DNA of 27,314 bases from a virus. The notes beneath the pieces were generated by a model. That model was not told the origin of the DNA. It ran no database searches and saw only the letters and a program-made list of their open reading frames with translations. The position numbers and the translations under genes are program-made. This document shows positions 2,016 to 4,886 of the stretch, piece by piece; within the stretch, counting starts at the first letter, position 1, and every line of letters starts with the position of its first letter. The DNA lies in the IMG/VR virus record IMGVR_UViG_3300037468_000141, positions 1-27,314 of that record. One strand, 5' to 3'.

Positions 2016-2273
2016 TCAGCGGCGCCGCGACGCGACGTGCACATGGAACATCGCGCGGCGCCGAAGCTCAACCCGCGCCAGAGCCAGCCGATGCTCGGCG
2101 GACCGCCGGCGCGGGCACATCTCCGGACACGGGTCCTGGCACGCGCGGCACACCATCTGCTCGAACTGCCACTCGACCACCCCGCGCAGCTCGCGGTTGG
2201 TCAGCGCCGACAAGAATTCCTTGAACAGCCAGTCAGCCCCGGCGGGCTTCCGGTCAAGGTACTGGTTCCCCAC
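2016..2273 (-). CDS. Small Cys-cluster protein after the spanins
   Basis: This 85-residue protein starts at a GTG inside the end of the o-spanin gene (20-base overlap), with only a weak ribosome site, so coupling is likely. The N-terminus is helical (ADWLFKEFLSALTNRELRGV). A Cys cluster follows, CRACQDPCPEMC (residues 42-53), a possible zinc knuckle. The C-terminal third is very basic (RRRSAEHRLALARVELRRR). No family recognised. It is the last gene before the regulatory gap. Confidence 0.55.
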   Translation of the reverse strand: MGNQYLDRKPAGADWLFKEFLSALTNRELRGVVEWQFEQMVCRACQDPCPEMCPRRRSAEHRLALARVELRRRAMFHVHVASRRR

Positions 2274-2607
2274 ATGCCGGCACCAGCGCGTTGTGCGCCG
2301 TCACCTTCTCTAGCCATGCCGCATCGCGCTTGCGGAGCACCGCCTCGACCTGTTCGAGCGCTTCGCCGAGCGAGAGCGCCCAGGCCTTCAGTTCCTCCTC
2401 GTCGGCGTCGTGCGGGTACTGCGGCTTCGCCGGCAGCACCGGGGCCGGCAACGGCTCGATGGCGACGATGCACGGCGCTGGCACCTTCACCGGCGGCGGC
2501 TGCTGGGTCGATGCGCAACCGGATGCGCACAACGCCAGCCCGAAGATCAAGATGACGAGCGCCAACAGCGCTAGCACCTGAAGCAGATTCTTGAACCGCT
2601 CCTTCAT
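2254..2607 (-). CDS. o-spanin (Rz1-like) outer-membrane lipoprotein
   Basis: This 117-residue protein has a lipoprotein signal: basic start (MKERFKN), hydrophobic core (LLQVLALLALVILIFGLAL), lipobox ASGC with lipidated Cys31. The mature part starts proline-rich (QQPPPVKVPAP ... LPAPVLPAKPQYP), as o-spanins do, followed by a charged helix (DEEELKAWALSLGEALEQVE). It is longer than lambda Rz1. It overlaps the i-spanin stop as ATGA, giving the adjacent-gene arrangement seen in many phages. Together they imply a host with an outer membrane. Confidence 0.78.
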   Translation of the reverse strand: MKERFKNLLQVLALLALVILIFGLALCASGCASTQQPPPVKVPAPCIVAIEPLPAPVLPAKPQYPHDADEEELKAWALSLGEALEQVEAVLRKRDAAWLEKVTAHNALVPACGEPVP

Positions 2608-3059
2608 GGCGCACCCCCGGCCATCGACCGCAGGACCAGTTCGTAGGTCTGGCAGATGTCCAACCCGACCGCCTGCTCGCTCATGGCGTTGTACTTGTCG
2701 GAGATTAACCGCAGGTCCGACTCGGCCAACGCCAGCTTCGCCATCAAGGAGTCAATCGTCCGCTGTTGTCGTTGCGCCAGCTCCCCGAGAGTCGCCGCCT
2801 CCTCGACGAGACGGTTCTGTTCCCTGATCGCCGTCTCCTTGACCGCGATGGTCGCGTCGCGTTCAGCGATGGTAGCGTCCTTCCCCGCGAGTTCCTCGGC
2901 GTGGGCCTGCTTCAGTTCGGCGACCTCCTTCGCGTTCCTGATGTCGGCGTTGGACCTCCCGGAGCCGACCCCGCAGCGGTACAACCCAACGAGGAGACCG
3001 AGCACGATGATGTATGGGAGTGCCTTCTTGCCGAGCTTCAATGCGAGCATCCAGGTCAT
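2604..3059 (-). CDS. i-spanin (Rz-like) inner-membrane coiled-coil protein
   Basis: This 151-residue protein starts at an ATG (3057-3059) overlapping the preceding stop; a longer upstream frame has no ribosome site. Residues 14-28 are one transmembrane helix (LPYIIVLGLLVGLYR). Residues 45-125 are a long coiled coil with short repeats (KDATIAERDATIAVKETAIR). This N-in, periplasmic coiled-coil layout is that of the i-spanin (Rz), which links the inner membrane to an outer-membrane lipoprotein and fuses the membranes at the end of lysis. The lipoprotein gene follows directly in an ATGA overlap. Function inferred from architecture and gene order. Confidence 0.8.
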   Translation of the reverse strand: MTWMLALKLGKKALPYIIVLGLLVGLYRCGVGSGRSNADIRNAKEVAELKQAHAEELAGKDATIAERDATIAVKETAIREQNRLVEEAATLGELAQRQQRTIDSLMAKLALAESDLRLISDKYNAMSEQAVGLDICQTYELVLRSMAGGAP

Positions 3060-3274
3060 CCTGAACCCCCGTTCCCTTTCTTCCCGGCGATGGCATCGGC
3101 GGCTCCTTCGACTGCCTTGCTCCCGAGGAACGCCAGCCCGATCGCCGTGTTGTAGCTGATCCACTGCGCCCAGGTCATATCGTCGAAGATGACGTAGGCC
3201 GCGGTGAACAGCGCAGCGAGCAATGCGAACACGAACCCACGACCACCCGCCGAGTTAATGAGGTTCCCAATCAT
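3056..3274 (-). CDS. Holin-like small membrane protein
   Basis: This 72-residue protein starts at ATG behind a perfect AGGAGG. Residues 13-31 form a transmembrane helix (GFVFALLAALFTAAYVIF), and 36-55 a weaker second one (WAQWISYNTAIGLAFLGSKA). The C-terminus is small and basic (AGKKGNGGSG). Size, topology and position, between the endolysin block and the spanin pair, fit a holin that opens the inner membrane at lysis. No family match is claimed. The stop overlaps the i-spanin start as ATGA. Confidence 0.6.
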   Translation of the reverse strand: MIGNLINSAGGRGFVFALLAALFTAAYVIFDDMTWAQWISYNTAIGLAFLGSKAVEGAADAIAGKKGNGGSG

Positions 3275-3283
3275 GCGCGCCTC

Positions 3284-3721
3284 CTAGTGTTCGGTCCTTG
3301 TCCATGCTGACGTGTCGCCACTCTCGAAGCCATCAGCGAAGATGTTGGCGAAAGTCCAATCGCACTCACTCGGATGACCCTCGGCGCGGATTACGGCTTG
3401 GCCGTCATCATCGAAGTGGATTGGCCCGAGCTTCACCTCGTATGGAACGCCTGGCGTGGCCTGGTGCGCGTAGTGAACGTGGGCCGAGATCAGGTCGCTG
3501 CCCTTGAATACGGGCGTCTCGCAGACCACCGGCCAGGTCGGGGTCGGGGTTGTCGTCGGAGGCCTGGTCGGAGTGCGCGTCACGGTGGAGAATGGGGTTC
3601 TCGTCGCGGTGCGGGTTCTCGTCGGCGTGCGGGTGGGTGTCCTGGTTGGGGTAGGTGTAGCAGCATCGATCGCCCCGCAGAGGCAAATCACCATCGCGGC
3701 AGTCAACGATCTCAGTACCAT
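3284..3721 (-). CDS. Secreted Thr/Pro/Arg-repeat protein with DGFESGDTSAW motif
   Basis: This 145-residue protein has an N-terminal signal peptide (MVLRSLTAAMVICLCGAIDA, cleavage likely before ATPTP). Residues 21-62 are low-complexity TPTR repeats, a flexible linker. A folded part follows from 64 on (VVCETPVFKGSDLISAHVHY ... VPYEVKLGPIHFDDDGQAVI), and it ends NIFADGFESGDTSAWTRTEH. The final motif and TPTR linkers are familiar to me from secreted proteins of GC-rich Gram-negative bacteria, not from phages. It overlaps the amidase stop by ten bases and precedes the holin-like gene. It may have been acquired from the host; an envelope role is inferred. Confidence 0.65.
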   Translation of the reverse strand: MVLRSLTAAMVICLCGAIDAATPTPTRTPTRTPTRTRTATRTPFSTVTRTPTRPPTTTPTPTWPVVCETPVFKGSDLISAHVHYAHQATPGVPYEVKLGPIHFDDDGQAVIRAEGHPSECDWTFANIFADGFESGDTSAWTRTEH

Positions 3722-4263
3722 TCCTCAATCGCTTTGGTAAGCGCCTCCACGGCCGTGTTGCGCCAGGCCGCCGATGCCAACCGCGCAGCGTCCTCCCGGC
3801 TGGAGATGAACGCGAACTCGATCAGCACTGCGGGACAGTGGGTGTGGACCAGGACCCAGAACTTGCTCTCTTTGTCGGGGTCGCCGTCTGAGAAGTCCGC
3901 TCGTCCCTTCATGTCGGGGAACGCCGACCGCAGGCTGTACCAGATGCGGCCGGCCAGCTCGTCAGCCTCGTCCGGCTCCGGGTTGGTCCAGACCTCGAAA
4001 CCGTTCGCTTGCGGATTGTCCACCGCGTTACAGTGAAGGCTCAGGAACACGCCGGAATTGAAGTCGCGGGCGATGTCGCATCGCTGCTGAAGTTCGCGGA
4101 AGGTGTTGTCCCACCGGGTTAGCTGCACTTCGTGGCCAGCGAACGTCAAGAGAGCGGCGAGTTGCTGCGCGATGCCGAGCACCACGTCACATTCCCTCGC
4201 CCCGCCGATCCCGACTGCGCCGCTATCGTGGCCGCCGTGGCCCGGGTCAATCATCACTCGCAT
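3712..4263 (-). CDS. N-acetylmuramoyl-L-alanine amidase (endolysin)
   Basis: This 183-residue protein is a single Amidase_3 domain that cuts the bond between muramic acid and the L-alanine of peptidoglycan stem peptides. Zinc ligands are His9 in MIDPGHGGHDSGA, Glu24 in GARECDVVL and His77 in LSLHCNA. The catalytic Glu149 lies in VLIEFAFISS. There is no signal peptide and no cell-wall-binding domain, as is common for endolysins of phages with Gram-negative hosts, so a holin is needed for export. The start follows GGAGCGTC. It is followed by the repeat protein, a holin-like protein and the spanins, which together form the lysis cassette. Confidence 0.93.
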   Translation of the reverse strand: MRVMIDPGHGGHDSGAVGIGGARECDVVLGIAQQLAALLTFAGHEVQLTRWDNTFRELQQRCDIARDFNSGVFLSLHCNAVDNPQANGFEVWTNPEPDEADELAGRIWYSLRSAFPDMKGRADFSDGDPDKESKFWVLVHTHCPAVLIEFAFISSREDAARLASAAWRNTAVEALTKAIEEWY

Positions 4264-4451: not shown

Positions 4452-4886
4452 TCACCTCACCCTTCGCAGAAGCTCCTTGATGTCGGACCTCATCTCGACC
4501 AGATCAATCCGCAGTCCATCGATCTGCTCCTGCCGCTGAGCCTGCCCGATCTTCAACGCGGTGATCTCCTGTATCTGCGTCGCGTGCATCGGAGCCTCTG
4601 AGATGTCTCGCAGGTCGGCAGCGTGGTCGACCATGACCCCGATGTGCATGTTGAGCGGAGACAGCGGTTCCCTGATCTGGTTCGTGATCTCGCGCTGGAC
4701 CTGTATCTCCACCCCGGCTTGGACGGCACCGAACACCGTCAGGCCGATGGTCACCAGTGCGCTGATGAAGGCCGCCCACGTCTTCCACCGCGCGATCGAG
4801 AAGGTGTAGACCGTCACCGTCTTCCCGTTCCCGTCCTCGAATTCCGTCATCCCCGTCCCGCCCCTTCTGTCGTGTGGTGTGGTCAT
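4452..4886 (-). CDS. Membrane protein with coiled-coil tail, lysis-associated
   Basis: This 144-residue protein starts at ATG behind GAGAGGGGAC, overlapping the previous stop. Residues 1-33 are hydrophilic, 36-58 form one transmembrane segment (WAAFISALVTIGLTVFGAVQ), and 62-144 are a charged helix with a coiled-coil pattern (QRQEQIDGLRIDLVEMRSDI). The layout recalls small one-pass phage membrane proteins found beside endolysins, some acting as holins or antiholins. It lies two genes before the amidase. A second ATG at codon 13 also has a G-rich leader. Confidence 0.55.
   Translation of the reverse strand: MTTPHDRRGGTGMTEFEDGNGKTVTVYTFSIARWKTWAAFISALVTIGLTVFGAVQAGVEIQVQREITNQIREPLSPLNMHIGVMVDHAADLRDISEAPMHATQIQEITALKIGQAQRQEQIDGLRIDLVEMRSDIKELLRRVR

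Follow-up and report, generated by a model that had tools for sequence, protein, structure and literature searches.

The locus described here raises the question of why a phage lysis cassette should contain a gene for an exported-type protein with a threonine-proline linker and a short, distinctive C-terminal ending. The stretch of DNA that was analysed (the ‘window’) is 27,314 nucleotides long and comprises positions 1 to 27,314 of the IMG/VR record IMGVR_UViG_3300037468_000141. The original prediction for this gene, made from the letters of the DNA, had proposed a link to lysis, a resemblance to bacterial envelope proteins and, as one possibility, the capture of a host gene; these proposals fared differently.

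The tagged gene and the lysis cassette around it

The gene (3284..3721, on the minus strand, as is every feature of the window given below) encodes a protein of 145 amino acids, and all three predicted features were confirmed: the N-terminus is hydrophobic, TPTR repeats are present and the ending contains DGFESGDTSAW. A signal-peptide-like hydrophobic start (residues 1-21, 3659..3721, assigned from hydropathy alone) is followed by a Thr-Pro-Arg repeat linker (residues 22-62, 3536..3658; Thr-Pro linkers are also found in the phage loci L002, L190 and L213), by a small domain with two cysteines, HYAH and GHP motifs and five predicted strands (residues 63-126, 3344..3535), and by the C-terminal tag IFADGFESGDTSAWTRTEH (residues 127-145, 3287..3343), which is 16 residues long when counted from the D of DGFE. 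A lipobox is absent from the first 60 residues.

That this is a real gene follows from the presence of a 70% identical protein, in the same position and with the same overlap with its neighbor, in a second phage contig (IMGVR_UViG_3300027871_000005, loci L002/L005/L007), where the amidase ahead of it is 83% identical to that of the window. In this single pair of contigs, the window protein has a dN/dS of 0.175/1.25 over its last 81 residues and the amidase one of 0.146/0.99, so that both genes look to be under purifying selection. Neither phage records nor PDB sequences nor Pfam gave a match to the complete window protein, and a search of NCBIfam returned a chance-level match alone (E 0.62); a match to PHROG 15511 (E 2.6e-7) was discounted, as it spans residues 20-80 and thus mostly the repeat linker.

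The gene had been placed between an amidase and a holin-like gene, and so it is. Upstream lies an endolysin, an N-acetylmuramoyl-L-alanine amidase of the Amidase_3 family (3712..4263, E 1e-41), within whose 3' end the ATG of the tagged gene is found, giving an overlap of 10 bases. Downstream, in order, come a holin-like protein of 72 amino acids with one hydrophobic segment (3056..3274; hydropathy, and PHROG holin/anti-holin at E 0.06), an Rz-like inner spanin (2604..3059; PHROG Rz-like at E 0.0036, with a transmembrane segment at residues 13-32) and an Rz1-like outer spanin with a lipobox-like ASGC (2254..2607; PHROG Rz-like at E 0.0019), these three names resting on weak profile support together with position and hydropathy. 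Ahead of the endolysin, with one small gene between, is a further protein with one transmembrane segment (4452..4886; PHROG holin at E 0.007); such a gene also precedes the endolysin in the phage loci L155, L142, L160, L193, L211 and L218, sometimes again with a small gene between.

The same downstream order recurs in other phages with tagged genes: the holin-, Rz- and Rz1-like positions are filled in L155, L017, L142 and L160 as in the window, and Rz- and Rz1-like genes follow the tagged gene in L211. Against PHROGs, none of five holin- and spanin-position proteins from L142 and L160 was matched at E <= 0.01, and L155 likewise had no match at E <= 0.1 for its proteins in the holin and Rz1 positions; because none of those tested was matched, the holin and spanin names used outside the window stand for position, hydropathy and reading by eye. 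Beyond the lysis cassette, the window encodes an SprT-like protein (207-746, E 1.6e-5, just under the Pfam cut-off), and a short ORF resembling it follows the spanin-like genes of another locus (L226, 4874-5158).

The C-terminal tag in bacterial genomes

A scan of one genome per species with a DNA pattern for the tag (DGFE followed by an S/T-like residue and GD, with a W four residues further along and no C-terminal place required) gave at least 106 loci. Among the matches listed, 59 of 80 loci bear Acidobacteriota names, Thermoanaerobaculia being the commonest, and 83 of 111 ORFs with the motif have it within 30 residues of the C-terminal end (one of the 83 being the phage-like contig L017); in 48 of these motif ORFs the distance from D to the end is exactly 16 residues, as in the window protein and its relative. 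Within the 80 listed loci, the motif lies this near to the C-terminus in 58 of 66 ORFs labelled Acidobacteriota, in all nine from unnamed bacteria and in three of 15 from named other phyla, L017 being one of the three. The tail composition, again among the matches listed, is polar (DGFESGD..AWS...P), usually with five residues or fewer after the W; the window tag ends in TRTEH where host tags often have S...P, and the ending of the L002 relative is the better fit.

The carriers of the tag are diverse. Compared by BLAST ahead of the tag (E <= 1e-3), the 52 complete carriers among the matches listed, L017 included, fall into 33 clusters. A crude hydropathy rule assigns a signal-like start to 36 of the 52, compared with 154 of 916 background ORFs, a set that includes false genes. 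When 30 carriers were compared with NCBIfam (at E <= 0.001 rather than at curated cut-offs), four matched choice-of-anchor Q and four matched CSLREA, and single matches were to proteases and surface-protein families, including rhombosortase- and myxosortase-dependent M36 peptidases. The predicted ‘features of bacterial envelope proteins’ thus find support in a C-terminal tag that is common to many exported-looking Acidobacteriota proteins.

The distribution between genomes is uneven. In a sample of the phylum, nine of 297 genomes contain the motif, with 130, 80, 64 and 31 sites in four of them and a single site in each of the other five (at least one of these being a chance match with a stop codon), and the reversed pattern has no site in the sample. 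Eight genomes chosen for having the tag contain 14 to 130 sites each and none of the reversed pattern, a contrast that argues against a chance ending; one further genome has five sites under a looser pattern. Listed by genome, G001-G008, G037 and G061 hold 14 to 130 copies of the tag, and most others of the 297-genome sample hold none. In those genomes the tag may itself be regarded as a candidate sorting signal. Four tails that were scanned matched no model in Pfam or NCBIfam, and a search of the literature on pieces of the motif gave nothing relevant by title.

In architecture, the type IX (Por) C-terminal signal departs from LPXTG and PEP-CTERM (PMC3237569), as does the tag. The Por signal is a larger domain. 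Among the features by which GlyGly-CTERM and PEP-CTERM were recognised are their C-terminal place, their unrelated carriers and a near all-or-nothing pattern between genomes (PMC3237569). The tag is like these two, and like LPXTG and MYXO-CTERM, in being a short C-terminal homology region on otherwise unrelated proteins, most of them exported-looking, and it shares with sortase-type signals the occurrence of many copies per genome and of presence or absence by genome (PMC3237569 and PMC11980579). Its carriers, moreover, match families that bear such tails elsewhere. Unlike PEP-CTERM and GlyGly-CTERM, which consist of a motif, a transmembrane helix and a basic cluster, the tag has neither a hydrophobic helix nor a basic end.

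We know of no machine that reads this tag. Exosortase (PF09721) was found in all eight of a set of tag-rich genomes, once in each, and in two of eight tag-less ones, in a comparison of hand-picked genomes that was not corrected for kinship and that left out the tag-bearing G003 and G005 (35 and 14 sites); exosortase as the possible reader is a lead only. SprA_N, of the type IX translocon protein SprA, was found in none of 16 genomes, but equally in none of 14 control genomes, so that its absence does not count against type IX secretion.

The presence of such a tag on a phage protein invites comparison with the host’s own genes. A profile of the 85 C-terminal residues was searched against 147 genomes of the tag-bearing class, one of which matched at E <= 1e-6, at the tag end. 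Below that level, most of what eight tag-bearing genomes matched was the tag only, although some matches extend beyond it into the domain, the longest beginning at profile position 15. Capture of a whole host gene, as had been suggested, was rejected on this result.

The major capsid protein of the window matches three of 148 genomes of the class (at 48%, 34% and 26%), two of the three being tag-rich; the genome with the 48% match has five motif sites. A 24-kb contig of that same genome also encodes a second protein of the window’s structural region (32%) and, weakly, the tape measure; no lysis-gene match was found on it, from an ORF set that lacked the capsid gene and therefore shows little. 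The probable host is a tag-using bacterium of the Thermoanaerobaculia kind.

Tagged phage genes, endolysins and the domains ahead of the tag

The set of phage genes was drawn from motif scans of IMG/VR viral contigs, in which the motif lies at the C-terminal end in 12 records besides the window (IMGVR 3300027871_000005, loci L002/L007, and L133, L142, L147, L155, L160, L190, L193, L194, L211, L213 and L218) and away from it in 49 other phage ORFs. The fourteenth tagged gene is that of L017 (QNFP01000205). This contig is phage-like but was assigned to a gammaproteobacterial MAG, possibly in error, because that MAG has no other tag site; L017 and the window were added to the set of 14 by hand, and three rows regarded as noise (L182, L183 and L210) were dropped before the count.

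The tagged gene follows a peptidoglycan hydrolase in nine of the 14, compared with none of 45 genes that have the motif elsewhere (Fisher 1.6e-7), these controls being the 45 of the 49 with a complete upstream ORF, taken as the longest ORF and possibly including some false genes. The hydrolases are of three kinds: Amidase_3 in the window, L007 and L218, Amidase_2 in L142, and M23 in five (L155, L017, L160, L193 and L211), the totals per family being those of the scan and their allocation to individual members being made from the sequences, partly by eye, except in the window, L155 and L017. The upstream genes of L160, L193 and L211 were picked by eye from larger stretches, the script having found none; the hydrolase of L160 lies about 385 bases off, beyond the 250-base rule applied to the controls, and without it as a match (8 of 14) the Fisher value is 1.4e-6. 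L160 and L211 are related, yet were counted separately; merging two related pairs gives 3e-6, and counting in the three noise rows (9 of 17) gives 1.2e-6. In six of the nine genes that follow a hydrolase, the start overlaps the stop of the gene ahead, and the gap is 2 bases in L211 and 18 in L193. A hydrophobic 9-mer (mean Kyte-Doolittle >= 2.5) is present in the N-termini of all 14 proteins.

The remaining five tagged genes lie away from an endolysin: by eye, those of L133 and L190 adjoin a zinc-finger-like gene, those of L194 and L213 are near terminase-like genes, and that of L147 comes after lipoprotein-like and lipase-like genes. The predicted link to lysis is nevertheless supported by the nine of 14 against none of 45, and homologues of the gene are not confined to unrelated positions as mere cargo, though these five are not beside an endolysin. 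Among other loci, a phage contig (L221:714-4167) has lipase-like, lipoprotein-like and tagged-protein genes in a row with overlapping ends, as read by eye. The DGFESGD...W motif also stands at the start or in the middle of many other phage proteins (L006, L131, L138 and others), so that a strand of domains like these may be the origin of the C-terminal tag or what it mimics. Another phage ORF (L128:1960-2280) has a signal-like start, immediately followed by VFRDGFESGDDRYW and then by a cysteine-rich stretch, which puts the motif at the would-be mature N-terminus.

With the tag removed, the proteins of the set are linked in part. E-values from phmmer, which apply to the set of 14 proteins only, were 1.5e-5 for the window and L133, 3.7e-9 for L133 and L218, 5.6e-6 for L133 and L190, 4.2e-15 for L218 and L155, and 1.2e-17 for L190 and L213; in the same set, direct links of the window to L155 and to L218 were not significant, and L142, L194 and L147 were not significantly like other tagged proteins. 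Profile comparison gave a probability of 68% for the window and L133 and of only 2% for the window against L155, L017 and L218; a link between the window and L213 may come from their Thr-Pro linkers. An alignment of eight sequences contains, as its only invariant residues ahead of the IF.DGFE region, one cysteine, one histidine and one proline, with GHP in six of the eight. L160, L211 and L193 have a long stretch in common that differs from the window domain.

The smallest members (L155, L017, L218 and L133) are of 100-107 amino acids, and four others reach 405 to 459 residues. The long proteins found no informative match in NCBIfam or PHROGs; read by eye, they resemble beta-propellers and, in L142, a PKD domain. 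An AlphaFold model of the small domain, built from the eight sequences, has a mean pLDDT of 68 (blocks of 68-80 over residues 64-123) and displays five strands and a poorly defined tag; the domain is probably beta-rich. Modelling of the whole protein reached a pLDDT of 54, too low for use. When the domain model, with its pLDDT of 68, was compared with PDB and BFVD, no fold matched at E <= 0.001. Because the domains ahead of the tag are dissimilar between phage groups, they do not point to one biochemical activity.

A proposed role in the outer envelope

The sequence itself displays a gene that overlaps that of the endolysin, and a product that begins like an exported protein and has a Thr-Pro linker, a small domain and a tag in register with those of bacteria. 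The reading that we favor, at a level of confidence barely above even, is that the window encodes a lysis-operon protein which carries the tag of its probable host and is exported and placed, via a host route, in the outer envelope. Synthesis would then occur late, alongside the endolysin, by translational coupling; the product would be exported by Sec, independently of the holin and before the holin opens; the host’s own sorting or anchoring route would recognise the tag; and, by the time the cell nears bursting, the protein would have reached the surface or the outer envelope, there to serve the release stage. The likeliest effect would be on the outer layer of a diderm cell, with surface material covered or displaced so that the layer gives way, or so that progeny are kept from adhering to debris; the Llp lipoprotein of phage T5 is a precedent for the second of these. 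That the protein ends in a tag of this kind suggests that the virus draws on its host’s sorting of proteins when the cell is about to burst.

Delivery appears to be the function that the tagged proteins share, since the tag stays the same while the domain ahead of it is exchanged. A wider reading, offered tentatively and with rather less than even confidence, is that bacteria of the Thermoanaerobaculia kind use a sorting tag that is undescribed and helix-less, and that their phages keep a slot after the endolysin for a tag-guided, lysis-stage factor. On the same reading, this slot would take whatever domain a phage may have, and the host’s own sorting machine would deliver the tagged factor to the outer surface.

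Two known kinds of phage protein offer partial parallels. Like the spanins Rz and Rz1, the tagged protein is an exported-type product of the same operon; unlike Rz1, it has no lipobox, and separate Rz- and Rz1-like genes are present. The Llp protein of phage T5 is a lipoprotein believed to shield progeny from the receptors that debris carries, and is not known to be encoded in a lysis cassette. The window protein would be like it in being a small exported phage protein that acts at the outer envelope, and is unlike it in having no lipobox in its first 60 residues and in its place among the lysis genes; the parallel is one of size, export and site of action.

Among other explanations, it is possible, but unlikely, that the product is a surface protein that blocks other phages, through superinfection exclusion or receptor masking, and is in the lysis operon only for the sake of late expression. 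The tag suggests placement at the surface, and the domains ahead of it vary between phages as expected of binders in an arms race; exclusion proteins, however, are usually made early or by prophages, whereas this gene overlaps that of the endolysin and nine of the 14 follow one. The sequence would be compatible alike with a weakened outer layer, with progeny kept off debris and with the exclusion of phages.

We regard as improbable the suggestion of an accessory gene (a ‘moron’) put together from host parts, which would be of use to the host cell or have no part in lysis. A gene of that sort would hardly be expected in the same place after three kinds of endolysin, with starts and stops overlapping in six of nine cases and a dN/dS like that of the endolysin, or with no full-length relative in the 147 class genomes at E <= 1e-6, even if its tag is cellular in style and five of the 14 tagged phage genes do lie away from an endolysin.

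It would be more surprising still if the ending were no sorting tag but simply a strand of the fold, like the one with which jelly-roll-like domains begin. The 49 other phage ORFs with the motif away from the C-terminus, like 12 of the 15 motif ORFs of named other phyla among the matches listed, are what such a strand would predict; the position within 30 residues of the end in 58 of 66 Acidobacteriota-labelled ORFs (among the same matches), the many clusters of carriers and the nearly all-or-nothing distribution between genomes are not. Least probable of all is a decoy substrate, with small tagged proteins made in a burst that would overload the reader of the tag, leave the outer layer unmaintained and ease lysis, for although the smallest members (100-107 amino acids) have scarcely anything besides a hydrophobic start, a small domain and a tag, the four of 405 to 459 residues have a length that a mere decoy would not need.

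We return to the preferred reading, of a tagged protein delivered to the outer envelope by a host route. No description of such a member of a lysis cassette was found in the open-licence literature, judged by title, and searches on surface proteins of Thermoanaerobaculia, on C-terminal sorting in Acidobacteria and on superinfection exclusion gave nothing on point by title. If the reading is correct, phages exploit a surface-sorting route of their hosts as part of lysis. The tag itself is a pointer to a system of protein sorting in Acidobacteriota for which the scans of Pfam and NCBIfam gave no model, and it provides a handle on that system, since its reader may be found by comparing genomes with the tag and genomes without it. 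In addition, the tag could be used to propose hosts for uncultured phages.
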